DNA from: a virus
IMG/VR virus record: IMGVR_UViG_3300013307_000021
Location: 1-63,584 of that record
Length of the DNA: 63,584 bases
Direction: 5' to 3' (one strand)
The translations under genes and the position numbers were made by a program. The notes beneath the pieces are model-generated. The model ran no database searches and had not been told where the DNA came from. It worked only from the letters and a program-made list of their open reading frames with translations. The first letter of the stretch is position 1. Each line of letters begins with the position of its first letter. Shown here in pieces: positions 1 through 59,526 of the stretch.

Positions 1-72
1 GAAGAACATCACGCCTCAATGGAAGCCGAAGACGATCAGGACGACTCAGAATCCGAAGCCATTGTTATCTAA
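1..72 (+). CDS. C-terminal end of an unknown gene (partial)
   Basis: An open frame enters from the left edge and ends with TAA at 70-72. The visible 23 residues are very acidic (rich in Asp, Glu and Ser) and end in Ala-Ile-Val-Ile. It is followed by a group of three hairpins, the last a terminator, so it is probably the last gene of an upstream plus-strand unit. Function cannot be told from this fragment. Confidence 0.5.
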   Translation, partial: EEHHASMEAEDDQDDSESEAIVI

Positions 73-89
73 TACCCCTCTCTCCTCCT

Positions 90-151
90 TGCGCTATGCG
101 CACCTTTCTGTTAATATAACAGCCCCTGTCGTAAAAAGCAGGGGATTTTTT
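90..151 (+). terminator. Three tandem hairpins ending in an intrinsic terminator
   Basis: Three short perfect hairpins follow one another: TGCGC-TAT-GCGCA (90-102), CTGTTA-ATA-TAACAG (108-122) and CCCCTG/CAGGGG (123-128 with 139-144). Only the last is followed by a T run (146-151), so it is the likely Rho-independent terminator of the gene that ends at 72. Confidence 0.75.
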
Positions 152-172
152 ACATTCAACAAGGAGAAATAA

Positions 173-334
173 ATGAGAAACTTTGTAGCTAAAAATGATT
201 TCAACCGTGCTTCCACTCACCGTGATCGCAAGAACGATTATAACCGTGCGTGGGACATTGATGACGAGATAGACGACTATGAACCAAGAGGAACTAGCGA
301 AGCTGTTGATGACAGCCAAGCCAATGCCGATTAA
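173..334 (+). CDS. Small acidic protein of unknown function
   Basis: A 53-residue frame opens with ATG preceded by a strong ribosome site (AAGGAG, 161-166). The N-terminal half is basic and Asn/Arg rich; the C-terminal half is strongly acidic (Asp-Asp-Glu clusters) and ends in Ala-Asp. It is the first gene after the terminator at 123-151 and leads into the spanin genes. No family is recognised. The clean ribosome site is the main reason to believe it. Confidence 0.6.
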   Translation: MRNFVAKNDFNRASTHRDRKNDYNRAWDIDDEIDDYEPRGTSEAVDDSQANAD

Positions 335-416
335 GAAGGTGGTAGATAACTCTCCACCAAAACACATACAGGATCTTATAAATGCTAGAAGCACTAAAAC
401 TACTGCTAGCCAGTAA
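279..416 (+). CDS. Possible small overlapping gene upstream of the spanins
   Basis: A 45-residue frame starts inside the end of the 173-334 gene and ends 32 bases inside the inner spanin gene. It is basic and predicted soluble, with a helical N-terminus. Only a weak ribosome site (GAGA) lies upstream. It fills the gap between two firm genes, which is typical of compact phage operons, but no family is recognised and it could be a chance frame. Confidence 0.35.
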   Translation: MNQEELAKLLMTAKPMPIKKVVDNSPPKHIQDLINARSTKTTASQ

Positions 417-804
417 ACAGGTGAGAAAGGTTATTTTGATCGTGGTGTTAGCATTCGCTCTTGTGATTGGAGGGGTAGCCCTTCACCATCACATCTATCA
501 TAATGGATATGAATCTGGCGTTGCATATCAAACGCAAGTTTACCAGAAGCAACAGGACGAAGCTAGAAATACTCTTGCCTCCAAGCAGGCACAAGCGGAT
601 AGCGACAGAGCTAAGCTGAATACCACAATAGAACAACTCACCGAAAAGAACAATTCTCTCCAAGCCAAACTTGACGAGAAATACAATAAACAGAAACAAG
701 AGGTAATAGATTATGCCAAATCTGTTGAAGGTGCTGGTACTTGCTTCCGTTCTAACGGTAACGGGCTGCGCATCATCAATGAAAGCTTCCCCGATAGTAA
801 TTGA
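382..804 (+). CDS. Inner-membrane spanin (Rz-like, i-spanin)
   Basis: This 140-residue protein has a basic N-terminus, one membrane segment (about residues 15-34, rich in Val, Leu and Ile) and then a long Gln/Lys/Glu-rich region (about 50-115) that should form a periplasmic coiled coil. This is the standard architecture of Rz-type inner spanins, which fuse the inner and outer membranes in the last step of lysis. The o-spanin gene at 713-1039 overlaps its 3' end in another frame, the classic embedded Rz/Rz1 arrangement, which makes the call firm despite low sequence conservation in the family. Confidence 0.85.
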   Translation: MLEALKLLLASKQVRKVILIVVLAFALVIGGVALHHHIYHNGYESGVAYQTQVYQKQQDEARNTLASKQAQADSDRAKLNTTIEQLTEKNNSLQAKLDEKYNKQKQEVIDYAKSVEGAGTCFRSNGNGLRIINESFPDSN

Positions 805-1039
805 CCAATGTAAGGTAGTTGCAACAGCGCCTGTATCTGGCCCTTCTGCCTCATTGATGGAAGCTAAATCGATTCCTGTCAGATACACAGCGAGTCAGAT
901 TAAAAATGGAGCCAACACCTCAGAGGTTGTGGCAAATCAATCAGAGAACAATAAACTGTGGGCTAATGACAGAGCTAAAGTCGATGGTTTACAAGAATAC
1001 GTGCATACCTTACAGGATAAAGGTATTGTGGCTAAATAG
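713..1039 (+). CDS. Outer-membrane spanin lipoprotein (Rz1-like, o-spanin)
   Basis: This 108-residue protein begins with a lipoprotein signal peptide and lipobox (LTVTGC, Cys at residue 19), so it should be lipidated and held in the outer membrane. It starts within the i-spanin gene, overlapping it by 92 bases in a different frame. The mature part is polar, with a helical C-terminus that could contact the i-spanin coiled coil. Unlike lambda Rz1 it is not Pro-rich and is longer. The gene ends with TAG, showing that amber is used as a real stop in this genome. Confidence 0.85.
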   Translation: MPNLLKVLVLASVLTVTGCASSMKASPIVIDQCKVVATAPVSGPSASLMEAKSIPVRYTASQIKNGANTSEVVANQSENNKLWANDRAKVDGLQEYVHTLQDKGIVAK

Positions 1040-1050
1040 GAGCGTTCCCT

Positions 1051-3135
1051 ATGGGAAGAGCAGCAGCAAAGAAAAAGATTAACGTAAATAACATTCAGAT
1101 CAATGCCCAGGAAGGTAAGCAGACTATAGCTATGGAGAGTATGCCTGACGTAATGATTTACGGCGGTGCGGCTGGATGTGTATCAGCAGAAACAGAATAT
1201 CTATCCGCAGAAGGATTGAAACCGATTAAGTATTACGACAACGAGAAGATCTATCAGTACAACCCAGATAATAAGAAACTGGAACTGGTGATGCCATACT
1301 TTATCGAGACAGAGATCAAAAACGATAACTTTCACCGCATCAGTAACACTGCTGGTATTTATCAAGAACTAAGTATGGAGCATCGCTTCGTATTTTACAA
1401 GAAGAAAAAATCTAAGAAGCATTTCGAAATTGCTGTTGGTGATCTTATTGCACTACAACAATCGGGTAATCCTCTTCGTGGCTACGTAGAAACATTCTTC
1501 GGGACAAGAATCCCTTTCAATATTAAAGGCAAACCAAGTACAGCTTTGAAGATCTTTGAATCTCCGGCTACAGACGGTCTGAAATATTGTTTCGAAACTC
1601 CATCGTCTTACTTGATTCTTCGTAGAGCAGGTCATACCTTTGTCACTGGTAATAGTGGTAAGAGTCGTCTGTTACTCCTGAAAGCTTTGAAGTTTGCATT
1701 TAAAGATCCGTTGTTTGAAGGCGTTCTATTCCGTAGAACAACTAAAGCACACAGATCCGCTGGGGGATTATTCACAGAAGCTAAGAAACTGTTTGCACCA
1801 CTGCAACCACACGTTCGTGAATCTTCTATGGAGATTGAATTCCAATCAACCCGAGGTGGTAAGCTTAAGTTTGACCACTTGGAATTAGAATCAACCGCAG
1901 AACAAAACCACCAGGGTACACAGTACTCGATGGTAGGGTTTGACGAACTTACACATTTCAGTATCACTCAGTTCCTATATCTGATTGGTCGTTTGCGTTC
2001 TGAATCTGAGACCTCAAGTTTCTGCCTAGCAACGTGCAACCCTGATGCAGATAGTTGGGTATTGAAGTTTGTTCTTCCTTACTTGGACGAAAAAGGCTTC
2101 CCAACAGACGAGATGTGTGGTAAACAGCTTTACTTCATCATCAACAACGATGAACCTGTTTTCTCTGATTCAGAGCAAGAGCTACGGGCATTATACCCTG
2201 ATCTGTGTAGTCAGTACAACCAGAACACCGGAGAAACTATTGATGTTCCACCTAAGACTTTCGTCTTCATTGGTGGTACAATCTTTGACAACCCAGCGCT
2301 AATTCGTCTTAACCCAAACTACTTGGCTTCATTGAAAGCTTAGACTAAGGTTAACCGTGAACGTCTGCTTGATGGTTGCTGGTATGCTCGTGAACAAGCC
2401 TCAAGTTATTTCCAGAGAGATTGGTTGAACAAAATCAAATACTCTGAGATCCCTAACAATATGACTTACGTTCGTGGTTGGGATAAAGCAGCATCTATTC
2501 CATCCGAAAAATATAAATACCCTGACTATACGGCTTCGGTTAAACTCGGAAAAGATAGCGATGGTAACATTTATATCTTCGGGGATTATGACTATGATGC
2601 AATCGACGAGAAGAGCAAGGTATACGGAAGATTCCGCAGACTACCAGGCGATAGGGATAAGCTAATCCTAAACCAGAGTAATATTGACGGAACAGACGTA
2701 ACTGTTGTACTTCCTAAAGATCCATCTGGTGCAGGTATCATCGAATACACCGAATCGGCTAAGAAATTAATCGCACAGGGATTCAATGTCAAACCAGACG
2801 CAATGCCTAACAACAAAAAGAAACTGCAACGTTTCATTCCAGTCAGTAGTGCTTGTCAGAATGGGTTTGTTTACATTGTAGAAGACTCTTTCAACAACCA
2901 AGAAACTCTTGATCACTTCTATCGTGAACTTGAAGTATTTACTGGTGAAAGATCAAGTGCAACGATTAAGGATGATTTACCGGATGCCGTGGCTTCTGCC
3001 TTTAACACAATCCAACGTGAACAGGTGTTTAACGCTGTGAGCATTCCTTCAATCAATGCTACTACTCGTTGGGCTAGTTCTCAGTTAGGTAAGCCGTCAA
3101 TGCCTAAGATGCCGTCAAGAATGCGCTCTTGGTAA
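1051..3135 (+). CDS. Terminase large subunit (TerL), intein-containing and interrupted by an in-frame TAG
   Basis: One continuous reading frame of 694 codons encodes the packaging motor, broken only by TAG at 2341-2343. Removing the intein (1177-1653) restores a Walker A motif GGAAGSGKS, and a Walker B-like stretch (MVGFDELTHF) follows at about 1930-1960. The part after the stop carries the RNase H-type nuclease: GWDKA at about 2479, a Lys-Asp-Pro-Ser segment near 2720, and Asp-Asp-Leu-Pro-Asp-Ala near 2971. The stop sits in the linker between ATPase and nuclease. Spliced and read through, the protein would be about 535 residues, a normal TerL size. Without readthrough the products would be an ATPase-only protein and a nuclease part that could start at TTG 2425 or ATG 2461, neither with a good ribosome site. 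Confidence 0.9.
1177..1653 (+). other. Mini-intein inserted in the terminase Walker A motif
   Basis: A 159-residue in-frame insertion splits the P-loop between Gly42 and the Ser of SGKS. It starts with Cys (CVSAETEYLS, like intein block A), contains a block-B-like SMEHRFVF segment near 1375-1400, and ends with a block F/G-like region finishing in Thr-Gly-Asn before the extein Ser. Nucleophile Cys1, terminal Asn and +1 Ser are all present. The penultimate residue is Gly rather than the usual His. At this size there is no room for a homing endonuclease, so it is a mini-intein. Splicing would be needed to form an active ATPase. Confidence 0.9.
2341..2343 (+). other. In-frame amber codon in the terminase gene
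   Basis: TAG follows Leu-Lys-Ala and precedes ACT AAG GTT. The frame is open on both sides and both halves are conserved terminase domains. One C-to-T change from CAG (Gln) would give it. Other genes here stop at TAG (for example 1037-1039), so amber is not reassigned wholesale. Confidence 0.9.
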
Positions 3136-3141
3136 TATTTC

Positions 3142-3170
3142 TTGACTTTTTAGATCTTTGGTGTTATATT
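3142..3170 (+). promoter_or_regulatory. Sigma-70-like promoter before the portal gene
   Basis: TTGACT (3142-3147) and TATATT (3165-3170) are separated by exactly 17 bases. The -35 box lies just downstream of the terminase stop. The predicted start is about 50 bases upstream of the portal gene. Confidence 0.75.
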
Positions 3171-3176
3171 GGGATT

Positions 3177-3201
3177 AGGAGATCTTTCGGTCTCCTCTTC
3201 T
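3177..3201 (+). terminator. Hairpin with T-rich tail at the start of the portal transcript
   Basis: AGGAGATC and GGTCTCCT can pair around a TTTC loop, and CTTCTTTT follows. It begins about where the transcript from the promoter at 3142-3170 would start, so it may be a 5' stabilising stem, an attenuator, or the terminator of the terminase transcript. Confidence 0.5.
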
Positions 3202-3227
3202 TTTAACAAACAACATAAGAGGTAGTG

Positions 3228-4784
3228 GTGGCTAAGAGACAATATACCAAAAAGTCCGACTACTGGAACTCAAAAACTTCGGTACAGAAAGCAGCACCCG
3301 CACCGCAGAAAGAAGAGTCTAATCTAGTTCTCTCGCAAGAAATCGGTACGTTGGGCCTAAGTTCAATTCGTAGCTTCACTGCATTCCTGCATAATCACGA
3401 GACTAAGTTTCCAGAGTCTATTCGCACATACAGAGAGATGGGCGAAGATCCAGATGTAGCAACAGCGCTGGACGCAGTTTATACATTTGTCGATAGAGCA
3501 TTCTTTGATTTCCGTGTTGACTATAACCAAAAGTCAGCTAAATCTAAAAGAGCAGCTAAATTCATTGATTACTCTCTTCGCAATATGGAAGCACCATTAC
3601 GCCAATATGTTAGATCACTCCTTACATATAAGCAATATGGATTTGCCATTGCTGAGAAAGTATTCGCTGTAGATGAAGATACCAAAAGTCCGTACTTCGG
3701 TCAATACCGTTTACAGAAATTAGGTTTTCGTCCACAAGACACGATTGACCTGACCACTCCATTCACTTACAGTGACGATGGACGTGAGATCATTTCAGTC
3801 AACCAGAACATCACCGGATCAATGCTTAGTAAAGCATTACCACAATCTCTGATTGGTAAAAAGTCTATTCCAATTCAGAAGTGTGTTCTCGTAGGAAATA
3901 ACATCACTGATAACAATCCTCTGGGTGTAAGCCCGTTAGCTTCTGTTTACCGTAGCTGGAGAGAGAAGACTCTGATTCAAGAGTATGAAGTTGTTGGTGT
4001 GAGTAAAGACTTAGGCGGTATGCCAGTACTGATGGTTCCTGGAGCAATCCTAAACCGTGCATCTCTGAACCCTAACGGGGAAGAAGCTCAGTCGCTTCGC
4101 GTCCTGCAATCAAACATCGCAAACCTACACGCTGGTGAGCAGTCTTATATGGTGTTGCCTTCTGACATTTATGAGAACACATCAATGCGTCAGTATGACT
4201 TGGTATTCCAAGGTGTACAAGGGAGCGGTAAGCAGTTTGACACACAAGCCCTGATTAAACAACGCCAGCTAGATATCTTTAACAGATTCGGTGCAGGTGT
4301 TCTTATTATGGGGGGTGGTGAAGGAGGTAGCTTATCTCTTTCTGACAACAAACAAACCCTTCTTTCTCATTATGTCGAGAGAGATGTAGATACTATCATC
4401 GAAGCAATCAACACTCAAGTTATTCCAACAATGTTGAAAATTAACGGAATCTATTTGTCTCAGGAAGATATGCCAAGATTATGTAGTGATGATATTGGTG
4501 ATCCTGATATCGAAACTGTCTCTTCTGCGATCCAGAAGATTGTAGGTGTTAAAGGTCTGCCAATGACTCCAGGCACTATCAATGAGTTCTTCGCAATGAT
4601 GGGGATGAAAGAAAGGATTCCTGATGATGTAGCAGCAGATCCTGAGAAGTTTAAAGAGTATGTGGAAACATATATGTCTGATCCTACCTCAAGATCGGGT
4701 GACGGAATCGCCGCAGGACAAGGTAACGGTACTTCTACCACTGCCGCAACCCGCGATAATTCAGTTGCAAATACGGCTAACTAA
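3228..4784 (+). CDS. Portal protein (gp29/DUF935-like)
   Basis: This 518-residue protein sits between terminase and prohead protease, the normal place for the portal, the dodecameric head entry ring through which DNA is packaged. The length and pattern (basic N-terminus, long alpha/beta core, disordered Gly/Thr/Ala-rich C-terminus) fit the Mu gp29-type portals. The start chosen is GTG 3228, five bases after AAGAGG; GTG 3225 is in the same frame but too close to the ribosome site. Function is taken from context and overall resemblance; the exact family is less certain. Confidence 0.85.
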   Translation: MAKRQYTKKSDYWNSKTSVQKAAPAPQKEESNLVLSQEIGTLGLSSIRSFTAFLHNHETKFPESIRTYREMGEDPDVATALDAVYTFVDRAFFDFRVDYNQKSAKSKRAAKFIDYSLRNMEAPLRQYVRSLLTYKQYGFAIAEKVFAVDEDTKSPYFGQYRLQKLGFRPQDTIDLTTPFTYSDDGREIISVNQNITGSMLSKALPQSLIGKKSIPIQKCVLVGNNITDNNPLGVSPLASVYRSWREKTLIQEYEVVGVSKDLGGMPVLMVPGAILNRASLNPNGEEAQSLRVLQSNIANLHAGEQSYMVLPSDIYENTSMRQYDLVFQGVQGSGKQFDTQALIKQRQLDIFNRFGAGVLIMGGGEGGSLSLSDNKQTLLSHYVERDVDTIIEAINTQVIPTMLKINGIYLSQEDMPRLCSDDIGDPDIETVSSAIQKIVGVKGLPMTPGTINEFFAMMGMKERIPDDVAADPEKFKEYVETYMSDPTSRSGDGIAAGQGNGTSTTAATRDNSVANTAN

Positions 4785-4813
4785 AATATTTTCATAAATA
4801 TTTAAAAAAGCTA

Positions 4814-4842
4814 TTGACAAAATACCGTATATCCTATAGAAT
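4814..4842 (+). promoter_or_regulatory. Sigma-70-like promoter before the prohead protease gene
   Basis: TTGACA (4814-4819) and TAGAAT (4837-4842) have a 17-base spacer. The -10 box lies in the first arm and loop of a perfect 11-bp inverted repeat (4828-4859), which could be an operator. Confidence 0.75.
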
Positions 4843-4859
4843 GAGATTTATAGGATATA
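4828..4859 (+). repeat. Perfect 11-bp inverted repeat over the promoter
   Basis: TATATCCTATA (4828-4838) and TATAGGATATA (4849-4859) are exact reverse complements with a 10-base loop. The repeat covers the -10 region and start site of the promoter at 4814-4842. No T run follows, so a protein-binding site is more likely than a terminator. Confidence 0.75.
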
Positions 4860-4880
4860 TGTTTTCAAAGGAACTTCATT

Positions 4881-5369
4881 TTGAACTTATCTCCAGAAGA
4901 GTTTATCGCACTGTCTAAGTCATTGCAACAATCTCCCACTAAAGTTGAAATCGACAAGAGCACTATCCCTGCCGATAAGACAGAAGAAAGTTTACCAATC
5001 CTGAAAGTTGAGCAATTTGCAGAAGAGAAGATGCAGGCCATTGAGGTTATGTATTGTCCTCCAGAGTATGATGATTTGCACGGCGAACGAATGTCAGAAC
5101 TTGAGATTCGCAAGATGGTAGATAACTTTAACGAGAACATCAATAACGTTCAAGGTAACTTAGGACACATCAAGAACACGAAGCAATTTAAACCAGTGAA
5201 AGCTTGGGTTAATGAAGTGGATTGTATGATTGGTGATAACCTAGTAACCGAAGGAACGCCCCTAGTTAAGATTCAATTCTACGACAGAGACTTGTTTGAA
5301 GCAAGAAAAAATGGCGTATTGAAAGGTCTTAGTATTGGTGCTCTAGGTCGCTCAGTCGAAAAGGAATAA
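4881..5369 (+). CDS. Prohead protease (XkdF-like)
   Basis: This 162-residue protein is placed directly after the portal and before the scaffold, as expected for the protease that trims scaffold and capsid during head maturation. It contains a Gly-Asn-Leu-Gly-His segment near residue 90 and an ending with KGLSIGA, both reminiscent of the XkdF-type phage proteases; the His and the Ser are candidate catalytic residues. The start is TTG at 4881 with AAAGGA a few bases upstream; no better ATG exists near it. The protease call rests on these motifs and on position. Confidence 0.7.
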   Translation: MNLSPEEFIALSKSLQQSPTKVEIDKSTIPADKTEESLPILKVEQFAEEKMQAIEVMYCPPEYDDLHGERMSELEIRKMVDNFNENINNVQGNLGHIKNTKQFKPVKAWVNEVDCMIGDNLVTEGTPLVKIQFYDRDLFEARKNGVLKGLSIGALGRSVEKE

Positions 5370-5373
5370 CTTA

Positions 5374-6486
5374 ATGGCTAACACATATTTAGAAGACATT
5401 GACTTCTCCGCACCAGCGTCTGATGTTTCTTGTGGAGCACACATTGCTTACACATTTGCCGAACAAGGCGGTGCAGCATCAGGATTCAATAATCCTCTGA
5501 TGTTTAAGAATAACGCGGCTAACGCTGAACTGTCATTTGAAAAACTAGAGACTCTTAAGGCTCTCGGTGAAGATGTTACAGAACTGCGTAAGACTTATGT
5601 AAGTCAGATTATGGACTCTCTTCAATCCGCTGTCAACGATAAATATTCGGACGGTTGGAGTTGGGTGAGTGTAGTGGACGCAGATTTTGATAACAGCCTA
5701 GTTATCTTCGTTACAGACTTTGGTTTGTACGCTGCTGGATTCACTATTAACGGACTTACAGTTGAGTTGGAAGACACAGCTACTCCAGTAATGCCAGTTA
5801 CAGATTATCAAGTATTAGATGGTGCAGTACTTATTTCCATTGATTACTTTGACTATATGATTGACGAAGCATTAGCTAATCTGGTTAAGAGCACAATCAA
5901 ACACTCACACGTAAAAGAATTACTGGTTAAGGCGAAAGCCAAGCCAGAAGACAACTCTGTGAATGCAGAGGAAACTCACGCAGGATCAACTGCAAACACA
6001 CCCGAAATCCAAAAAGGAGAACTCCCATTGGAACTTAACAAAGAAGAGTTTCTGAAATCAGCAGAATTCCAAGATCTGATGAAGGCTCAAATTGCAGAAG
6101 CTGTAGAAAAGGCTAGCGACGAAGCTAAAGAAGCTGCTCAGGCCGAAGCTCAGGAAGCTATTGCTAAAGCTCAGGCTGAACTGGAAGAACTTCGCAAAGC
6201 TGAACAAGCTCGTATCGAAGAAGACTATGCAACTGTACTGAAATCTTATGGCTTCGTGTCAGAAGAAAAAGTTGACGTTCTGGTTAAATACCTGGTAGCA
6301 AATAGCGAAGTAGCTGATGCAATCGTTGAGTCTTTTGATAAGGCTAAAGACGAAGTAGCAACAGTCAAAGCTGAGTTTGCCGCTGAGAAAGGTGCTTCTG
6401 TAGAGAATGCTTCTGCTGTAGTTAAAAGCTCAAGTGACCTGATCGCTAAACGCGCTCAAGAAATGAAAGCCCGTAAATCTAAATAA
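5374..6486 (+). CDS. Head morphogenesis protein with C-terminal scaffold domain
   Basis: This 370-residue protein has two parts. Residues 1-190 form a mixed alpha/beta domain of unknown role. Residues 215-370 are almost purely helical and charged, rich in Ala, Glu and Lys, as in phage internal scaffolds that guide capsid assembly and are then removed. The gene follows the protease by four bases. A ribosome site and TTG start inside the gene (6014-6030) suggest that the C-terminal part is also made alone, as lambda makes Nu3 within gene C. Confidence 0.75.
   Translation: MANTYLEDIDFSAPASDVSCGAHIAYTFAEQGGAASGFNNPLMFKNNAANAELSFEKLETLKALGEDVTELRKTYVSQIMDSLQSAVNDKYSDGWSWVSVVDADFDNSLVIFVTDFGLYAAGFTINGLTVELEDTATPVMPVTDYQVLDGAVLISIDYFDYMIDEALANLVKSTIKHSHVKELLVKAKAKPEDNSVNAEETHAGSTANTPEIQKGELPLELNKEEFLKSAEFQDLMKAQIAEAVEKASDEAKEAAQAEAQEAIAKAQAELEELRKAEQARIEEDYATVLKSYGFVSEEKVDVLVKYLVANSEVADAIVESFDKAKDEVATVKAEFAAEKGASVENASAVVKSSSDLIAKRAQEMKARKSK
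6028..6486 (+). CDS. Nested in-frame start: scaffold protein alone (candidate)
   Basis: AAGGAG at 6014-6019 lies eight bases upstream of TTG 6028, in the frame of the 5374-6486 gene. Translation from here gives a 152-residue helical, Ala/Glu/Lys-rich protein, the normal composition of a scaffold. TTG starts with good ribosome sites are used elsewhere in this genome (4881, 9849 and 59222). The boundary coincides with the switch from the mixed alpha/beta domain to the helical domain. Confidence 0.6.
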   Translation: MELNKEEFLKSAEFQDLMKAQIAEAVEKASDEAKEAAQAEAQEAIAKAQAELEELRKAEQARIEEDYATVLKSYGFVSEEKVDVLVKYLVANSEVADAIVESFDKAKDEVATVKAEFAAEKGASVENASAVVKSSSDLIAKRAQEMKARKSK

Positions 6487-6505
6487 TTTAAAAGGAATCT
6501 CTTAA

Positions 6506-6898
6506 ATGGCAACATTTAAAACTTACTCTCGCGGCTTCGGTCGTTACAGTGACCTGGTACTTGGAAACGTATTCTCTTCTGATCTAGGCCATTGTGTTCG
6601 TGAAATCAACCTGGTTAAAACCGCTACAATGCAACTTGGTAGTGTCCTGACCGCTGCTGGTGTAGAAGCTGCTGCCGCTGGCGATGCTGCTACCGTACTG
6701 GTATGGACTGACGTTACCTTTGACATTGCTGACGTTCCAGTTGGTGAAACTTTCACAGCAGTAGTCGCTAAGCGTGACCTGACTCTGAACCGCTTCAAAG
6801 TTGTTTATTCTGACGGAAGTCTGATTGACGATGCTGGTGTTGCGGCTCTGGAAGAAGTCGGTCTGAAACTGACTGCTACAGTCCTTGTGACTTCTTAA
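6506..6898 (+). CDS. Head decoration/stabilisation protein (gpD-like position)
   Basis: This 130-residue, Ala/Val/Thr-rich, beta-strand-rich protein lies between scaffold and major capsid genes, where lambda-type phages encode the head-stabilising decoration protein. It has a good ribosome site (AAGGAAT). Length and composition fit, but no diagnostic motif is visible, so the role is inferred from position. Confidence 0.65.
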   Translation: MATFKTYSRGFGRYSDLVLGNVFSSDLGHCVREINLVKTATMQLGSVLTAAGVEAAAAGDAATVLVWTDVTFDIADVPVGETFTAVVAKRDLTLNRFKVVYSDGSLIDDAGVAALEEVGLKLTATVLVTS

Positions 6899-6926
6899 TT
6901 TTAACTTTTAATAAGGACGCTAAATA

Positions 6927-7943
6927 ATGGCTTTCGATTTTCAAACTGACCGCAAGGTTGACTTTACTCCACTGATTGAACTGGCTCCAACTCAGAACAC
7001 TCTGATCAGCAGCCTGGGCATCTTCGAGTCATACAACCACGCAACCACTGAGATCCGCGTTGATCGTGACGTTTCAAGTGACAAACTGATTCCTGCCCGT
7101 GTACGTGGCGGTGAGCGTAACTGGCTGACCACTCCTGGTCTGAACGGCGTTGCTGTAACCATTCCGTTCTTCCCACTTGACCACAACATCAAAGCTCAGG
7201 ATATTCAGTCATTCCTTGACTTCCTGAACCCAGATGCAGATCGCCTGACCACTCAGGAAGCAGTTGTTAACCGTTATCTGAACCAGATTCGTCGTAACGT
7301 AGCCTTCACCAAAGAACGTATCCTTGCTGATGCAGTTATGGGCCGTGCTTACGTTGGTACTGATGCAGACGGTTTCCAGAACCAGAACCAGAACTACAAC
7401 TGGTATGATGTATTCGGTGTTGCTCAAGAGTCAATCTCTATTGACTTCACAAGCACAACCATTGACCCAACTGAGGTTATCGAAGCTCAGGCTCGTGGTT
7501 ACATCATCGACAACAAGCAAGATGGTAGCACTGTAAGTAACATCATCGCCCTGTGCGGTCGTCAGTTCTTCTCTCGCATCATCAGCAGCCCGTTTGTTCG
7601 CTCTGCATTCACTTACTACCAAGGTACTCCGAACCCGATTCGTGACCGTATCGGTGGAAACCTGGATGCGCGTGTTTGGAACTTCAAAGGTGTAACTTAC
7701 ATCGAAGATATCCACAACAACGTTCCAACAAACGAAGCGTTTGTATTCCCAGAGGGCATTTCCAATATGTTCCAGGAACACTTCGCACCAGCAGATGCTT
7801 ACGCATACGCTAACCAACTGGCTCAGGATTTCTACCTGTTCCTGATCAACACTGACTGGCGTGTAATGTCAATGCAGTCCGAATTCGGGATGCTGGCAGT
7901 TTGTACTCGTCCAGAACTGGTTGTTCGTCTGACCACTGCTTAA
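6927..7943 (+). CDS. Major capsid protein (phage capsid family E)
   Basis: This 338-residue protein matches the size and look of the lambda gpE-type major head protein: an N-terminal arm with an Asp/Phe-rich start, a beta-rich middle, and a C-terminus ending in an Arg-Pro-Glu-Leu-Val-Val stretch common in this family. It builds the HK97-fold icosahedral shell. It is preceded by scaffold and decoration genes and followed by a strong terminator, as expected for a highly expressed gene. Its codon use is visibly biased to a few codons (CTG, CGT, AAC), more so than its neighbours. Confidence 0.9.
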   Translation: MAFDFQTDRKVDFTPLIELAPTQNTLISSLGIFESYNHATTEIRVDRDVSSDKLIPARVRGGERNWLTTPGLNGVAVTIPFFPLDHNIKAQDIQSFLDFLNPDADRLTTQEAVVNRYLNQIRRNVAFTKERILADAVMGRAYVGTDADGFQNQNQNYNWYDVFGVAQESISIDFTSTTIDPTEVIEAQARGYIIDNKQDGSTVSNIIALCGRQFFSRIISSPFVRSAFTYYQGTPNPIRDRIGGNLDARVWNFKGVTYIEDIHNNVPTNEAFVFPEGISNMFQEHFAPADAYAYANQLAQDFYLFLINTDWRVMSMQSEFGMLAVCTRPELVVRLTTA

Positions 7944-7970
7944 TTGTAGCGGAACGATTGGATAATATCA

Positions 7971-8001
7971 ACCCCTGCCCTTCACAGGGTGGGGGTTTTT
8001 T
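7971..8001 (+). terminator. Terminator after the capsid gene
   Basis: CCCCTGCCCT and AGGGTGGGGG form a GC-rich stem (with two G-T pairs) followed by a run of six T. It closes the capsid transcript; the next ribosome site follows within 25 bases. Confidence 0.8.
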
Positions 8002-8015
8002 ATTTAGGAGATAAA

Positions 8016-8363
8016 ATGAATAACATTCTCAAGCATTACCACAGCACATACGATATGGTGATGGACTTTGCCACTCTTAGTGATAAGATTGACGCAGAAG
8101 CTACACTGGCTCGTGCTCCAGAGTTTTCTTTCTATACCAAAGACGGATCTATTCACCTCGGTGGAACATTCCTGATCTTCTTGGTTAAAGTCGTTGAAGC
8201 CACTGGCATCAAAATTCTTCCAATGTCTAGCCTAGAAATGCCTGGTGTATTTGCTGTTAGCTACGAAGATTATTCTCCGGTAGAATCAGAAGCACAAGAG
8301 AAGATCGCAGTTAAGGCTGTAGATACTCCTGCTAAGAAAAGAGCTACCCGAGCTAAAAAATAA
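8016..8363 (+). CDS. Unknown head-region protein
   Basis: This 115-residue protein starts at ATG 8016 after TTAGGAGATAAA. It has a short globular domain with a hydrophobic stretch (about residues 50-66) and ends in a Lys/Arg/Ala-rich tail. Its place between capsid and neck genes suggests a head-completion or head-tail joining role, but no family is recognised. Confidence 0.65.
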   Translation: MNNILKHYHSTYDMVMDFATLSDKIDAEATLARAPEFSFYTKDGSIHLGGTFLIFLVKVVEATGIKILPMSSLEMPGVFAVSYEDYSPVESEAQEKIAVKAVDTPAKKRATRAKK

Positions 8364-8377
8364 TAGGAGAACGGATT

Positions 8378-12476: not shown

Positions 12477-12956
12477 ATGCAAGTTGAAGAAAATGTTATC
12501 GCACAATACGCGAAACCAGAGGTTAAGATTGAACTTGAGTTAGATTCAGGACGTAAAGTAGGTTTCAGGATTATTCGCTGGAGACCTTCTAAAGTCTTTG
12601 ACCGAATCCCTGAGTACGGCAGTATTTTTGCTGTTCCTATGGTGATGTATGGTACAGCCGAGGATCTTGCCGGAGAAGATTATGAACAGAAGATTGCAAT
12701 GTCTCTGATTCAGCTTTTCTCGGGACTAGAGCAACGTGTTCTGTCTGACCTGTTGAAAGATATCTTAGACGAAACCTACACAGAAGACAACGTTTCTGTT
12801 GTAGAAAAATTTGAAGAATTGTTTATGTTACACCCTTACCTTGTAGTTGATTTAGCAGCAAAGGTTCTTGAGGTGAACTACGGCCCTTTTTTCAAACGCG
12901 GTTTCGGAAAACTGTTAACCCAATTTCAAACCGTGCAGACGCTGAACAACAGCTAA
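12477..12956 (+). CDS. Tail assembly chaperone, short form
   Basis: This 159-residue protein lies between tube and tape-measure genes, exactly where the pair of tail-assembly chaperones (lambda G and GT equivalents) is encoded. These chaperones coat the tape measure during tail assembly and do not enter the virion. It is rich in Glu and hydrophobic residues with a helical C-terminal half. Ribosomes that slip at 12887-12893 make the long form instead. Confidence 0.8.
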   Translation: MQVEENVIAQYAKPEVKIELELDSGRKVGFRIIRWRPSKVFDRIPEYGSIFAVPMVMYGTAEDLAGEDYEQKIAMSLIQLFSGLEQRVLSDLLKDILDETYTEDNVSVVEKFEELFMLHPYLVVDLAAKVLEVNYGPFFKRGFGKLLTQFQTVQTLNNS

Positions 12957-13207
12957 ATCCAACGATAGCTAAGGCTATTGCCATCGCGGAAGAAACCACT
13001 AGCTTTCGCTGGTGGGATTATCTGCTCTACAGAATCACAACAAAAACGTCAGAAACCCTCTACACGCTCGATAAGTATAATGTGGATTACTTACTCAAGC
13101 AAGCTGAGATCATTGATTACGAAGATTATATCAGTGCCTTGCACAGAAAGGACTTCGATCAGAAAGATGAAGCTCGTCGTAAATGGGATATGTTCAACAA
13201 GAAATAA
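12477..13207 (+). CDS. Tail assembly chaperone, -1 frameshifted long form
   Basis: Slipping one base back at T TTT TTC (12887-12893) joins 139 zero-frame residues to 104 residues of the -1 frame, giving about 243 residues. The -1 frame is open from 12893 to TAA 13205-13207 and has no start of its own with a ribosome site, and its translation is protein-like (Glu-Glu-Thr-Thr-Ser-Phe-Arg-Trp-Trp-Asp, then a basic, helical end). The C-terminal T domain of such fusions recruits the tail tube. Tape measure starts 37 bases later. Confidence 0.8.
12887..12893 (+). promoter_or_regulatory. -1 ribosomal frameshift site T TTT TTC
   Basis: The heptamer fits X XXY YYZ in the zero frame (TTT at 12888, TTC at 12891). 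After slippage the next codon is CAA in the -1 frame, which stays open for 104 residues. It is the only good slippery heptamer noticed in the overlap. Confidence 0.75.
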
Positions 13208-13244
13208 TCTATGCCCTTGCTAGCCAAGGGCTTTGCGAGGTAAA

Positions 13245-32448: not shown

Positions 32449-34227
32449 TCAGAACTTCATATCGCCGCCAATGTTAGCGGGATTGCTAAAGTACTGCTCT
32501 TTGTCGTGCAGTGTAGCAGTTTTGATATCGTAGTAGAAGTTACCAGCCGCACCTGTCTCAGAAAACTCACGGTTTTTCAGGATGAAACAGTTTGTGGTGT
32601 TACGTTCAATAGGATCTTCCGCTGCTTTATCACGTTCCAGTGCAATAGTGATACCTGCACCTTTAGCCAAGAAGCTACTACCCATCGTATCATCTTCGGT
32701 GATGTGCTCGTTGTTACCATTGGCAGACTTCTTAACGTGAGAGATTACGATAATGGTGATGCCGTACTCTTTCATAATTCGTTTCAGCCAAGTAGCTAAC
32801 TCTTCTTGCTCACGAACATCCATACCAGACAGAAGATCCGAGTATGGATCAATGACCAGAATAGTTACGCCATAGTGAACAACCATCTCCAGCACTTTCT
32901 CTTTAACGCTCTCTACGCTAGCTCCACGGTCATCACACACAAAGAACTTAGGAGTGCCGTCTGGACGTTCGTAGAACGCACGGATGCGTTGCTCGTTGTC
33001 CATAAGAATAGCCTCACGCTCTTCTGGAGTCTTACGGTGCAGAGGAATATGCAAGTAAGAGGAAAGCAGGTTACGAGAGTATTTCTTGTATGTTGCTTCC
33101 AGAGACAGAATACCGAGAATGTCTTCTGGATGTTCCACAATAATGTGCTTCGTTACTTCGTTCACCAACAGAGTTTTACCAATACTGGTTTTAGCCAAAA
33201 TAACAGTAATCTCTTCTCGAACGAGTCCACCACCAAGCATATTTGCAGCAACCCGCATAAAGCCAGGTAGGGTGATAATCTGAGCATCCATACATTCAAG
33301 CGCTGCTTCGAACAGCATATTTGATGCATAAACACCAGCCGGAGTATACAGCTTAGACTTAAAGAACTGAGTCATAAAGTGATCTTTCTTACCGTCGATC
33401 AATGCCTGATTAGGATCTTTACAATCCAGAGTCATCACATAGACACGGTTACGAGGTAGCACTTTAACGCACTTCTCCATTGCCTCTTGACCAGCTTTAT
33501 CATTATCCAGACAGAGAATGATTTTCTTGAACTGATTCAAGAAGTTATACTGACTTTGCAACTGACGGTGCAGTGAAGTTTCACCACAAGTTCCTGATAC
33601 TACGGCAATCTCTGGGTATTTACCACCTGGATCGTTGTCTTTCAGAAGTTGAACTGCTGCAAGCTGGTCGTGCTCACCGCCAACAATCAGAATTGTACCG
33701 GAAGCATTGCGGTATTTGAACTGACCAAACAGATCACATTCTTTACCAGTTTCACCCAATGGGCCAGGGTGTGCAAACTCCTTCGGATGTTCACGAACTT
33801 TATAACCCGCGATCTCATATCCTTTGGTCACAGGGTAGTAGGTTCGATGGATACTGCCGTCACTGGCATACTCATAACGAACACCGAGAGGTTTTGAAAT
33901 ATCCTCACGAATGCCACGATAGTCTTTAGGGTGAGTACCAGTAATTTCTTTTAGTTTCTTGTGAATCTCTGCGTTGAATTCTCTTCCCACTATTTCTTCC
34001 TCTTCTTCTAATTCTTGACCATTTTCTCTTAACCATTTCTGGCTCGGGATCGTATATTCACAGGAGAAACAAAATCCTCCTTTATGCTCTTCATCACTAT
34101 CCAAGCCATACACCATAAGGTTATTGCCTGAACGATCCCTTCCCTTGCTTACACAACGAGGGCAAGCCTGATGCCCTTCTCTTGATAAATCAACTTCTAC
34201 GCCATACTTCTTAATGATGAAGCCCAT
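32449..34227 (-). CDS. Primase-helicase (T7 gp4-like)
   Basis: This 592-residue protein unites three domains. A zinc-binding domain with Cys-Pro-Arg-Cys (about 22) and Cys-Phe-Ser-Cys (about 52) reads the primer site. A Toprim primase core has Gly-Gly-Glu-His-Asp-Gln near 180 and Cys-Leu-Asp-Asn-Asp-Lys-Ala-Gly near 240. A DnaB-type helicase domain has a P-loop Thr-Ser-Ile-Gly-Lys-Thr near 345, a Walker B Val-Ile-Asp-Pro-Tyr-Ser near 440 and Ile-Ser-His-Val-Lys near 480. It unwinds the fork and lays primers for the polymerase just downstream. Confidence 0.93.
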   Translation of the reverse strand: MGFIIKKYGVEVDLSREGHQACPRCVSKGRDRSGNNLMVYGLDSDEEHKGGFCFSCEYTIPSQKWLRENGQELEEEEEIVGREFNAEIHKKLKEITGTHPKDYRGIREDISKPLGVRYEYASDGSIHRTYYPVTKGYEIAGYKVREHPKEFAHPGPLGETGKECDLFGQFKYRNASGTILIVGGEHDQLAAVQLLKDNDPGGKYPEIAVVSGTCGETSLHRQLQSQYNFLNQFKKIILCLDNDKAGQEAMEKCVKVLPRNRVYVMTLDCKDPNQALIDGKKDHFMTQFFKSKLYTPAGVYASNMLFEAALECMDAQIITLPGFMRVAANMLGGGLVREEITVILAKTSIGKTLLVNEVTKHIIVEHPEDILGILSLEATYKKYSRNLLSSYLHIPLHRKTPEEREAILMDNEQRIRAFYERPDGTPKFFVCDDRGASVESVKEKVLEMVVHYGVTILVIDPYSDLLSGMDVREQEELATWLKRIMKEYGITIIVISHVKKSANGNNEHITEDDTMGSSFLAKGAGITIALERDKAAEDPIERNTTNCFILKNREFSETGAAGNFYYDIKTATLHDKEQYFSNPANIGGDMKF

Positions 34228-34243
34228 TACTACTCCTTACTTA

Positions 34244-54477: not shown

Positions 54478-56288
54478 TTACAGGAACAATGGAACGAAGT
54501 AAACAGTTCCGTTGACAACCACCTGCATATGCGTTGAAGCAGTGCCTGGAGTTGTTGGTGTACCTGTTGCAGTGCTAACTGCAAGTAAGTTACCCTGAGC
54601 ACCAACACCTGCGCTACCGTTATGTAGAGACATACGAGGAGTCACAGCGTTTAAGCCAGGAGAAGCAGTCTGAGTAGCACCACTAACAGTAAACAATGCG
54701 CATTGACCTTGATCGAAACGTGTAGGAGACGTACTCTTAACGTTAATGACGTATTCACCAGTGTAAGGGCCAAACTGAACCCACAGTGAAGGTAATGTTT
54801 CATTGTATTGCTGGTTTGCATACTGAGCCGCAGTAACACCAGTAGCACCGAAGTGATACATTGTCACAATAGGGACGTTACCAGCACCACGTTGGATGTT
54901 GATAATAGTCTTACCAGGTGATCTGTCGGCTGTTACAGGATAGTTTCCGCTACCCACCGAGTTATAGCTTAGGCGAGAAATGATCTCAATCTCCCAAATA
55001 CCGCCGTTATTAGGGGTATAGAAGCTACCTAAGTTTAGCCACATACTAGCGTTGGCATTGTTTGTACCACGGAGAGCACCAGTGTACCACTTAGCTTTCA
55101 TTGTACCGTTGATAACGCTACCGAATGCCTCGTCTTGGCGGTTTCCTTGATCATAACCAGAAGACCACATACTGACTGCTGCATTGCTTCTGTTGAAGCT
55201 TGCGTTAATCAGGTTGATACCACGCAGAGATGCACGGCAATAGGTCAGATCAAACGGAGTATCAATATTCTCAAGGTCGAGTCCATCAATCAGCCATTGT
55301 CCATTAGACAAATCACCAGCGTGTACTGTATGCTCGATCCATCCATTGTAGATGAAACACTGTGTCGCTCTTGGTGCATAGATACTTGCGTTACCAAAAC
55401 CGTTTTGCAGGTTGAAGTTACTTAGCTCTAGTGCTGTTGAGTGATCCCAGTTCCCCACAGTTGCGTTGTCGTAAGTAACATCTAGGACGCTATCATACGT
55501 ATAACTACTGTAGAATTGATCAATCTTGGTGTCCAAGGTATCGATCAGGCTTAGGCTCTTACCTCCCATATATGAGAAGCGAACACATTTGATACGAGCG
55601 TACTGACCAGCAGAACAAATATTTCTAAAGAAGCCCATTGTATTGACTTTCTTATCATATTGCCCATAAACTAGGATGCCTGTGATCTCGGTATAACGTG
55701 CTTGCACTTTAAATGCATAGTCTGCGCTACCGTCAAGTACTAGTGTGGTCACTGCCATATATCCTAGCTCAACATCTGGGCCAGCCAGTTTGAATTTAGA
55801 TACGTATGTTGCAGAGTAATCCCAACCAGATACAAGGAAACTACCAGCAGGGAAACGGATTCCGAGGGTAGACAGGTATGTATTAGAGAAGGCATTCATT
55901 CGCTGGATAGCGGGTTGAGCATCAACTGTAGCACCAGGCATAGCACCAAAGTCTGTAACGTCTAACTTGTCGTATTCTTTCTCACGCAGCCAGAAATAAG
56001 TCTTACCGCTATCAGCAGCGTGTACACCCCATCATCTGCAATTTTACCTGCAAGGCTACCAGTAAACCAACCACTTCCGTGGAAACTTCCGTCAGTCACT
56101 GCGTTATAAGAGGAAAGAAATACTCGCTCACCTGTTGCCGTTGGTTTGGCTGCTTTAAGCTCTGCCCAAGACTTGAATGTGCGGTAGAAAGGATGTGCAG
56201 CAATATAAGCAGCGATTTGATCGCTTACGTCTGGAGGCGTTGTGCTTCCATTATTGCTACCACCATAAGGTTGTCCGAAAATTACCAT
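54478..56288 (-). pseudogene. Second tailspike, interrupted by a one-base frameshift
   Basis: Two frames together encode one tailspike. The N-terminal piece (56288 to about 56020; start ATG 56288 after AAGGAATATCTTA) has an attachment region ending Asp-Asp-Gly-Val-Tyr-Thr-Leu. In the other frame the text continues Ala-Asp-Ser-Gly-Lys-Thr-Tyr-Phe-Trp-Leu-Arg-Glu, then the beta-helix start Thr-Asp-Phe-Gly-Ala-Met. Joining them needs a -1 step at about 56013-56019, as if one G were lost from CTGGCT. The core (Gly-Gln-Tyr-Ala-Arg-Ile to Trp-Asp-His-Ser-Thr-Ala) is paralogous to the spike at 24079. It may be inactive, recoded, or a sequencing slip; the C-terminal frame 54478-55941 stays intact. 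Confidence 0.7.
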
Positions 56289-56337
56289 TAAGATATTCCT
56301 TATAAAAGGTAAGATCCCACTAAAGGGGTATTCCTTC

Positions 56338-56366
56338 ATTATACCCAAATAGCAGGTTTTAGTCAA
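56338..56366 (-). promoter_or_regulatory. Strong sigma-70-like promoter for the second tailspike
   Basis: TTGACT (56366-56361) and a perfect TATAAT (56343-56338) with a 17-base spacer. TCAATCA/TGATTGA (56363-56377), a 7-bp perfect inverted repeat, overlaps the -35 box and could be an operator. Confidence 0.85.
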
Positions 56367-56392
56367 TCAATGATTGATCATTAGGACAATGC

Positions 56393-56719
56393 TTAGGTTC
56401 GTGCTGCCCTCATTCGGGTAAGTGCCTCTCTTGCTGGCATACTTCGCCCCTGCTTAAAGTCTTCTTGAGACATTTTAACAAGAGCGACAAGAGCATCACT
56501 TTGACGATCATAATACTTATTCACCAAGTCACGATAAGCATAGTCTGTATCTTTTCCTGGGTAAGTATGGTTTTCGTCCTTCACATATTCGCACTTTCGG
56601 TCACAGCACCAGTAGCCATCCCGCTCACAACGATTAATGTGGGCCAGAATAGATCGGCGTAGTGCGCCTAAGCGTTTAATGTCCATCTTAGAGATCACTG
56701 ATTCGGATAAATATTTCAT
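56393..56719 (-). CDS. Unknown protein with a Cys pair
   Basis: This 108-residue basic, helical protein has Cys-Cys-Asp-Arg-Lys-Cys near residue 38, a possible metal site. It starts after AGGAGTAAGT. No family is recognised. Confidence 0.6.
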   Translation of the reverse strand: MKYLSESVISKMDIKRLGALRRSILAHINRCERDGYWCCDRKCEYVKDENHTYPGKDTDYAYRDLVNKYYDRQSDALVALVKMSQEDFKQGRSMPAREALTRMRAART

Positions 56720-56738
56720 ACTTACTCCTTATTCTAAA

Positions 56739-56858
56739 TTAACACCACCGACGAGTAGCAGCGCGTTGATGATCGCCACCCTCGTTATCGTTTGCTGCCT
56801 TTGCTTTCATTATAACTTTGATGTAAGCCTTTGCCAGCTTCTTCTCTTGAGTAGTCAT
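56739..56858 (-). CDS. Small basic protein
   Basis: This 39-residue Lys/Ala-rich frame starts on the last base of the upstream stop (TAATG), suggesting coupled translation. It ends with Arg-Arg-Trp-Cys. Evidence is position and composition. Confidence 0.45.
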   Translation of the reverse strand: MTTQEKKLAKAYIKVIMKAKAANDNEGGDHQRAATRRWC

Positions 56859-57214
56859 TAGAGGATACTCATAGACACGCCAACACCGTAATAGCCATTG
56901 CTTGATCCGTAGAATCGAACAGTGACACGACCTTTCGCGGTTGCAAACTTATAGAAAGTCCACATACCACATTCAGCCTCTTCGTTGTCTTCTGTAACTT
57001 CTTCTGCTTGCAGGATCGGAGATCCCACTAAGTCATCCAGATCGCCTTCAATGTCTTCGATGTAAACAGACTCACAGCAATCCTGATGATGCATAAACCG
57101 CACTGTACCGCCTTCTTCACGAACAAGAAGCAAAGCTTCATTCTCGTCGTCATTGGAAGTGAATGCTTTTGTCAGTGTCTGTCCGATCAAACAATCAAAA
57201 ATATCTACGCTCAT
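56858..57214 (-). CDS. Unknown acidic protein
   Basis: This 118-residue acidic protein starts at ATG 57214 after AAAGGAGAAACT. It has a Cys-Cys pair near residue 45 and a beta-rich C-terminal half (Val-Thr-Val-Arg-Phe-Tyr). No family is recognised. Confidence 0.6.
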   Translation of the reverse strand: MSVDIFDCLIGQTLTKAFTSNDDENEALLLVREEGGTVRFMHHQDCCESVYIEDIEGDLDDLVGSPILQAEEVTEDNEEAECGMWTFYKFATAKGRVTVRFYGSSNGYYGVGVSMSIL

Positions 57215-57224
57215 AGTTTCTCCT

Positions 57225-57566
57225 TTACCAGTTCCAGTGTCCGTGGACACTATTATATTTTTGTCTAGCCCATTTCACTGCTGCCACAAGCACATCTCCG
57301 TGACAAGAAGCAGGGGAACAAAAGCAGACGAGATTTTTATTTTCCAACTCAAGTAAGTCTTCAAGAGTAATCCTACCAGACTTGATTTGTTCCCACAACC
57401 ACTTTTTATACTTCTCAACCACTATTTCTCTTGTATCTGACGTAGTGATTTTAAAAGGATTGGCAAACTTAGAATGAGGAAGCCCCGATTGGGGCTGTCC
57501 TCTTCCAATATACACCGCGCCATCTGGTATCGTCTTACCACATTTGTAGTAATTCAATACTTCCAT
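57225..57566 (-). CDS. DUF4326-like protein
   Basis: This 113-residue protein shows the DUF4326 pattern: Tyr-Ile-Gly-Arg-Gly near 22, Ser-Lys-Phe-Ala-Asn-Pro-Phe near 34-40, and Leu-Val-Cys-Phe-Cys-x-Pro-Ala-Ser-Cys-His-Gly-Asp-Val near 80-93. The Cys/His group may bind metal or a nucleotide. The biochemical role of this family is not known to me. The start is ATG 57566, following AAAAGG. Confidence 0.75.
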   Translation of the reverse strand: MEVLNYYKCGKTIPDGAVYIGRGQPQSGLPHSKFANPFKITTSDTREIVVEKYKKWLWEQIKSGRITLEDLLELENKNLVCFCSPASCHGDVLVAAVKWARQKYNSVHGHWNW

Positions 57567-57568
57567 CG

Positions 57569-58255
57569 TCACACCTTTTCAAAAGACCAGAGAAGACCTT
57601 CCATAGGGATCGGTTGATCGTAGAGATCGGTCATAGTGTCTTTAAGAGTGAAATTACCTTCTGCATCTACTCGTGCCACCGTATATACTTCACCTACATT
57701 GTAGAACATATATCCTAATCCATCGGATCTAGTTACACGTACTTTATCACCAGGGGAAATAGACGCTTCTTGCTCAGCAAGGATATCAATCAGTTTACTC
57801 ATAAAGTAAGCCTGAGCCTCTTCCATATTCATACCTTTCACTGCCAGAACAGTTTCATCGTGCATCTGCTGAATCTCAACATCACCCGAGGCACGGACAA
57901 TCTCTCCTACAATATCCAGCATAGCTGAAACAGCATCTTCGCTTGCTACCTGTTTCTCACCATCTTCTGATGTGATAGTGTCACCGCTTTCGACGTTATG
58001 GATCACCCACTTAGCTTTACCGTCCAGAAGATCGACACATACCACTTTATCCACGTCATTGTAAAACTCTACACCGTAGGAGTCCACAGGAGCGCTGTTG
58101 ATGGTTCGATCCCCTGGGGTAAGGAAACGTAGCACCTTATACTCTTTACCCACTGTAACGTTGCACAGAGAGGATTTACCGCCCGTTTCGCTGAACTTGA
58201 TCAGGTTTGTGGACAATACAGAAGCTAAAATTGCAGACAGGCTATCGTTCATCAT
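57569..58255 (-). CDS. Unknown acidic protein with an SH3-like end
   Basis: This 228-residue acidic protein has a helical middle (about 105-165) and a C-terminal small beta domain with Gly-Asp-Lys-Val-Arg-Val-Thr and Val-Gly-Glu-Val-Tyr-Thr-Val, an SH3/KOW-like pattern found in several other genes here. The N-terminal half has a similar Gly-Lys-Glu-Tyr-Lys-Val strand. Function unknown. Confidence 0.6.
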   Translation of the reverse strand: MMNDSLSAILASVLSTNLIKFSETGGKSSLCNVTVGKEYKVLRFLTPGDRTINSAPVDSYGVEFYNDVDKVVCVDLLDGKAKWVIHNVESGDTITSEDGEKQVASEDAVSAMLDIVGEIVRASGDVEIQQMHDETVLAVKGMNMEEAQAYFMSKLIDILAEQEASISPGDKVRVTRSDGLGYMFYNVGEVYTVARVDAEGNFTLKDTMTDLYDQPIPMEGLLWSFEKV

Positions 58256-58265
58256 ATATTTCTCC

Positions 58266-58514
58266 TTAACACTTAGGTTGTTTATTCTTGTTCACAGCGT
58301 ACTTTACCAGAGTAAGATACTTTGAGCAAGAGGTTTTCTGTCGATAATGTTTCATCTTACCGTGTACTTCTTCCGAGTGGGCTTTCATAACAAACTTATC
58401 ACCCTCCACCCAAGAAAGATCCGTACCATCAGATAAGATCACTACCCACAGAGGCTTCTTATTCAGGTCATACCCTGCCTGACGGCAGGATACAGGCTTA
58501 ATAATATTCGTCAT
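58266..58514 (-). CDS. Unknown small protein
   Basis: This 82-residue basic protein overlaps the 3' end of the 58498-59022 gene by 17 bases and has a Cys-Ser-Lys-Tyr segment near its end. No clear ribosome site; coupled translation is possible. No family is recognised. Confidence 0.45.
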   Translation of the reverse strand: MTNIIKPVSCRQAGYDLNKKPLWVVILSDGTDLSWVEGDKFVMKAHSEEVHGKMKHYRQKTSCSKYLTLVKYAVNKNKQPKC

Positions 58515-59022
58515 CAAGTGAGTCTTTTTTATGTTTCAGTGCGAAAACAACATAGTACTCGTCACCACAGCCGTTGTCAACATAATATTTGTGATAATTT
58601 TCATCCGACTCGACTAATCCGGCACGATCATACGAGTAAATCTCACCATCCTCCATATAGAAAAGTTCACCGTAACCCTGCAAGGCCCACTCAGTGTCTG
58701 TCTTATCGACAAACTCCATACTGATCTCAGACTGAGCAAAGGCAGCGGCATCAGCAAATCGCTGTTGCAGGATTGCTGCATATGTCAGGAGTCCACCTTC
58801 CCACACAATGTGAGTAGAATCCTCGTTGATTGCCAGCTTGTCTACAGTACAGCCACGGTAAACCCCTTCGACGTGCTTAAACTGTAGCCGTCCTAGATCG
58901 TCAACACCTACTACAAGAAGTAAGTCCTCTGTTCCAGGGATAGGATCTGCACCTTCCCGATAGTTCATCACACGGATGATACGACCAATATCTTTATGGC
59001 TTACTGATTCTACTTTATTCAT
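58498..59022 (-). CDS. Unknown acidic protein
   Basis: This 174-residue acidic protein starts at ATG 59022, overlapping the stop of the 59019 gene (ATGA). The N-terminal part (about 1-60) has an SH3-like run (Leu-Leu-Leu-Val-Val-Gly-Val-Asp-Asp); the C-terminal part is Tyr- and Asp-rich. No family is recognised. Confidence 0.6.
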   Translation of the reverse strand: MNKVESVSHKDIGRIIRVMNYREGADPIPGTEDLLLVVGVDDLGRLQFKHVEGVYRGCTVDKLAINEDSTHIVWEGGLLTYAAILQQRFADAAAFAQSEISMEFVDKTDTEWALQGYGELFYMEDGEIYSYDRAGLVESDENYHKYYVDNGCGDEYYVVFALKHKKDSLDDEYY

Positions 59023-59499: not shown

Positions 59500-59526
59500 A
59501 TCTATCTCCTCGGTTTCAATACACAC

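Follow-up and report, generated by a model that had tools for sequence, protein, structure and literature searches.

A lone in-frame TAG in the large terminase gene of a metagenomic phage record is most likely a sequence artefact

The large terminase subunit (TerL) gene of the phage record IMGVR_UViG_3300013307_000021 raises the question of why a frame with terminase sequence from one end to the other should be interrupted by a stop codon. The window, by which we mean the whole analysed stretch, is the IMG/VR record in full (63,584 bases), itself probably a fragment. Bases 2341-2343 are TAG in the same frame as the ATG at 1051 and close an ORF of 430 aa, past which the frame stays open until the TAA at 3133-3135 (Table 1). 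If the TAG is decoded as a residue, the frame encodes a product of 694 aa, in which codon 431, the interrupting one, lies in the linker joining the ATPase and RNase H-like nuclease domains. The earlier note on this DNA had read both sides of the TAG as terminase in one frame, and the profile matches agree: phrog_979 (terminase large subunit) is matched over the full length of the read-through product (1e-198), with the Pfam domain Terminase_6N at residues 202-460 on the ATPase side (6e-22) and Terminase_6C at 476-652, slightly below the Pfam cut-off, on the nuclease side. This product carries both domains of a large subunit in a single frame; the deposited frame is broken at 2341, and its 430-aa product is missing the entire nuclease domain.

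Table 1. Coordinates of the features discussed, in window positions
Feature	Position	Strand	Matches and remarks
TerL frame, 694 aa counting the TAG as a sense codon	1051..3135	+	phrog_979 (1e-198), PF03237, PF17289
430-aa ORF as deposited: TerL ATPase part with intein-like insert	1051..2343	+	stops at the TAG
159-aa intein-like insert splitting Walker A	1177..1653	+	GGAAG / C...TGN / SGKS
In-frame TAG	2341..2343	+	CAG (Gln) in near-identical relatives
RNase H-like nuclease part, rest of the frame	2344..3135	+	earliest in-frame start: TTG at 2425
629-aa frame interrupted by loss of one base at 56029	54478..56366	-	intact in relatives

The codon carried by relatives is informative in this regard. 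At the DNA level the window terminase is ~70% identical to those of Stephanstirmvirinae phages of enterobacteria, which have genomes of ~147 kb. Closer metagenomic relatives are the contigs L002 and L008 (G001, 141 kb, in which base 59,511 corresponds to base 1 of the window), both 99.4% identical to the window over the TerL gene (12 differences in 2085 bases), and L003, L004 and L005 (G002, 83 kb), which are 85-98% identical. All five have CAG at the site, and L006 and L007 also encode Gln there, such that the frame is open with Gln in 7/7 IMG/VR relatives examined. The same residue is present in every Stephanstirmvirinae terminase of a 12-sequence alignment and in a Vibrio phage terminase with 54% identity; among the seven contigs and the aligned sequences none has a stop at this site. 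The bases around the TAG are identical to those of the near-identical relatives with CAG. Two IMG/VR scans, around the window alleles at 2341 (either codon in its exact local context, which returned L002 alone, with CAG) and at 2189, gave only the known close contigs, none of which has the window allele; the closest records to the window could be absent from the set scanned. The comparison at this codon, which the earlier note had asked for, hence bears out its proposal of a single CAG-to-TAG change: since the close relatives have CAG and the aligned Stephanstirmvirinae all have Gln, one C-to-T change accounts for the TAG.

To place this change among the others in the record, we compared the window base by base with G001, using G002 to polarise the side on which each change had occurred. 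Five of the 12 TerL differences from L008 (1217, 1348, 2189, 2341 and 2842) are absent from every close contig, and all five alter the protein (four missense changes and one stop), whereas each of the remaining seven, which occur in at least one other contig or on the G001 side, is synonymous (Fisher p = 0.0013). Two of the private missense changes hit E380 and F598, which are otherwise invariant or nearly so, and a third hits a Trp of the intein-like insert that is invariant among relatives. Across positions 1-8377, the changes private to the window comprise 14 nonsynonymous changes (stop included) and 3 synonymous ones (N:S), as against 1:17 for the G001-private ones (p = 4e-6); window-private changes are densest along 1-7000. 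When the count is restricted to blocks of low divergence within the left 27 kb, which were picked after the table of changes had been seen, N:S is 21:5 for the window and 5:23 for G001 (p = 7e-6), and the counts of transitions to transversions (ts:tv) are 8:18 and 25:5 (p = 1e-4). The difference in N:S shrinks over the entire interval 1-26,680 (26:47 in the window versus 13:76 in G001; p = 0.003), and the error load along the record is uneven, because right of 53.2 kb the N:S excess is not significant.

When random changes were simulated in these genes, 79% were nonsynonymous or nonsense; the neutral transition share is one third. The window-private N:S ratio and transition share equal this neutral expectation (binomial p = 1.0 for both), whereas the G001-private values depart from it (p = 7e-12 for N:S and 2e-8 for ts:tv), a pattern which is that of natural variation. 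Since both of their measures match random expectation, the window-private changes in the low-divergence blocks are without a trace of selection, as base errors would be. Among 26 such changes 1.25 nonsense changes are expected by chance, with a probability of 0.72 for at least one.

The TAG, then, is private to the record, and the private changes in the low-divergence blocks look random and unselected, from which we infer that base 2341 is one of those errors. Because all the relatives have an ordinary codon at the site and the record-only changes resemble random errors, we consider it highly probable that one wrong base in a metagenome-derived record gave rise to the TAG; sequencing error, which had earlier been listed as one option among several, is now much the best supported of them. 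The wrong base could have originated as a miscall, through library damage or as a low-coverage consensus error, and the phage itself would most likely have a Gln codon at the site and make an ordinary full-length terminase. Against this reading, C-to-T is a transition, whereas the window-private changes lean to transversions, and the same N:S signal would arise if the sequenced molecules carried genuine mutations that had escaped selection.

The latter point leads to the alternative that the nonsense mutation was truly present in the molecules sequenced, namely in a defective variant that could not package its DNA alone and would exist as a minority or be complemented. The unselected private changes of the window would fit dead variants as well as errors, and a second gene is broken too: in a comparison of the 75 G001 genes of at least 100 aa, two are broken in the window, i.e. 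TerL and the gene for a 629-aa protein. The base lost at position 56029 is present in three relatives, and this frame is intact in G001, L038 and L039; its product has no Pfam match and is tail-spike-like by appearance only. Nevertheless, we regard a defective variant as unlikely, given that the excess of transversions is more like miscalling than biological mutation, that a consensus contig should carry the majority base, and that a lineage without the terminase nuclease could not long accumulate changes. Separately, the window lacks three G001 ORFs (139, 223 and 150 aa), the points of absence being 26680, 34215-34241 and 51116; the 150-aa ORF belongs to the PinA peptidase-inhibitor family (PF10465). 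The region 27000-53000 diverges from G001 in a patchy manner, with 9 to 121 differences per 3 kb, which suggests mosaic exchange.

A real TAG might also be suppressed by a CUA tRNA, encoded either in the tRNA cluster of the phage itself or by its host, which would insert Gln or another residue and thereby yield full-length terminase. The 63,584-base window has no tRNA genes, the cluster of the matching relative lying beyond its left edge: near-identical G001 has 18 tRNA genes at 54,935-58,579, the last of which ends ~930 bases left of the window start. Further, reading through the TAG would lengthen the products of genes that genuinely end in it by only 3-34 residues. Hence, the observation of the earlier note that other genes stop at TAG holds against recoding but has no force against partial suppression. 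However, the anticodon CUA occurs in none of the 18 tRNAs of G001 or the 17 of G002, so a suppressor tRNA was found neither in the window nor in these two clusters (the window's own cluster would be left of the record); moreover, the interrupting TAG affects just one gene in 75, and the relatives have CAG. Suppression is accordingly very unlikely in our estimation. A particular version of it, in which a tRNA-rich phage has gained an amber suppressor tRNA and its terminase has come to depend on phage-encoded suppression while the relatives still have CAG, would represent an early step toward stop-codon recoding, but we give it only the slimmest of chances.

General recoding of TAG can be rejected: recoded phages show such codons in many genes and avoid TAG as a terminator, whereas only one of the 75 genes compared between the window and G001 is interrupted, and conserved genes end in TAG in both. 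The earlier judgment that it was improbable is thereby upheld within the window. A conserved-looking TAG at 13221-13223, before the tape-measure frame, also proved to be noise, as the ORF at 12978 does not share the reading frame of the likely tail-assembly-chaperone extension. Positions 12477-13210 likely encode this chaperone and the programmed frameshift by which translation enters a second frame, which ends before the tape-measure gene.

A functionally split terminase, or programmed readthrough that sets the ratio of ATPase-only to full-length product, is scarcely credible despite the position of the TAG in the interdomain linker and the introns that split TerL in relatives: all the relatives are open with Gln where programmed readthrough would have the stop and its context conserved, the flanks of the private TAG are those of its CAG-bearing relatives, and there is no sign that a downstream start has newly arisen, so that neither of these proposals of the earlier note finds support. 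PHROG does have separate families for the two TerL parts, which meet near residue 443-445, and natural splits therefore probably occur. One break near the linker is found in A150, a Campylobacter phage of the Justusliebigvirus group with an UNVERIFIED record (L011, 4161-5136), where a 976-base insert between TI and FDNP, ~57 bases upstream of the window TAG codon, carries an HNH-endonuclease ORF (HNH_3, 1.7e-9) and matches the group I intron family Rfam RF00028 just below the gathering score (43.6 bits, E 1.4e-9). We reject an intron-split terminase in the window, as this intron is at another position; nor is the TAG an intron relic, because the window has no insert and the flanking bases match the CAG relatives. 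Fragmented TerL annotations are found in two more phages, Escherichia phage YP-6 (L034:1363-2921), where an ORF separates the fragments, and Vibrio phage ICP1 (L037:86-1871), where a putative homing endonuclease gene is adjacent; TerL thus appears to be a hot spot for elements of this kind.

A different element within the same frame is the insert in Walker A, which is conserved across Stephanstirmvirinae terminases. It begins with Cys, has SMEH at the place of block B and ends in Asn followed by Ser (...FVTGN/SGKS). There is no Pfam intein match, and its match to the PolII-intein profile is weak (E about 0.1); with a low-confidence fold model (mean pLDDT 51), nine intein or Hedgehog HINT structures were ranked first. 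By its terminal residues and the SMEH motif it looks like a mini-intein.

In more general terms, the TAG most likely represents an artefact rather than a new way of reading genes, and it recommends caution: before a lone stop in a metagenomic phage genome is taken for readthrough or recoding, it should be set against the spectrum of changes private to the record. Other records with a near-identical relative are open to the same comparison of private and shared changes by N:S and ts:tv.

Finally, the locus may be set beside known systems. Among papers found in searches on in-frame stops in terminases, the nearest case is that of the TAG-recoded gut phages of the phAss-1 group, which likewise have an in-frame TAG in a core phage gene; phAss-1 is reported to have TAG in 41 ORFs along with three suppressor tRNA genes, as opposed to the one such TAG and no known suppressor tRNA of the window (PMC10607447). 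The TerL genes of Stephanstirmvirinae (Justusliebigvirus, Phapecoctavirus and Klebsiella phage 05F01) share the gene order and the Walker A insert and show 69-79% protein identity, but have an open frame with Gln where the window carries TAG. The A150 gene is similarly interrupted near the ATPase-nuclease linker, though by an intron with an HNH ORF and not by a stop. Amber mutants grown on suppressor strains present the same kind of lesion, a single CAG-to-TAG change in an essential gene; unlike them, the window comes from an environmental metagenome and carries many further private changes free of selection.
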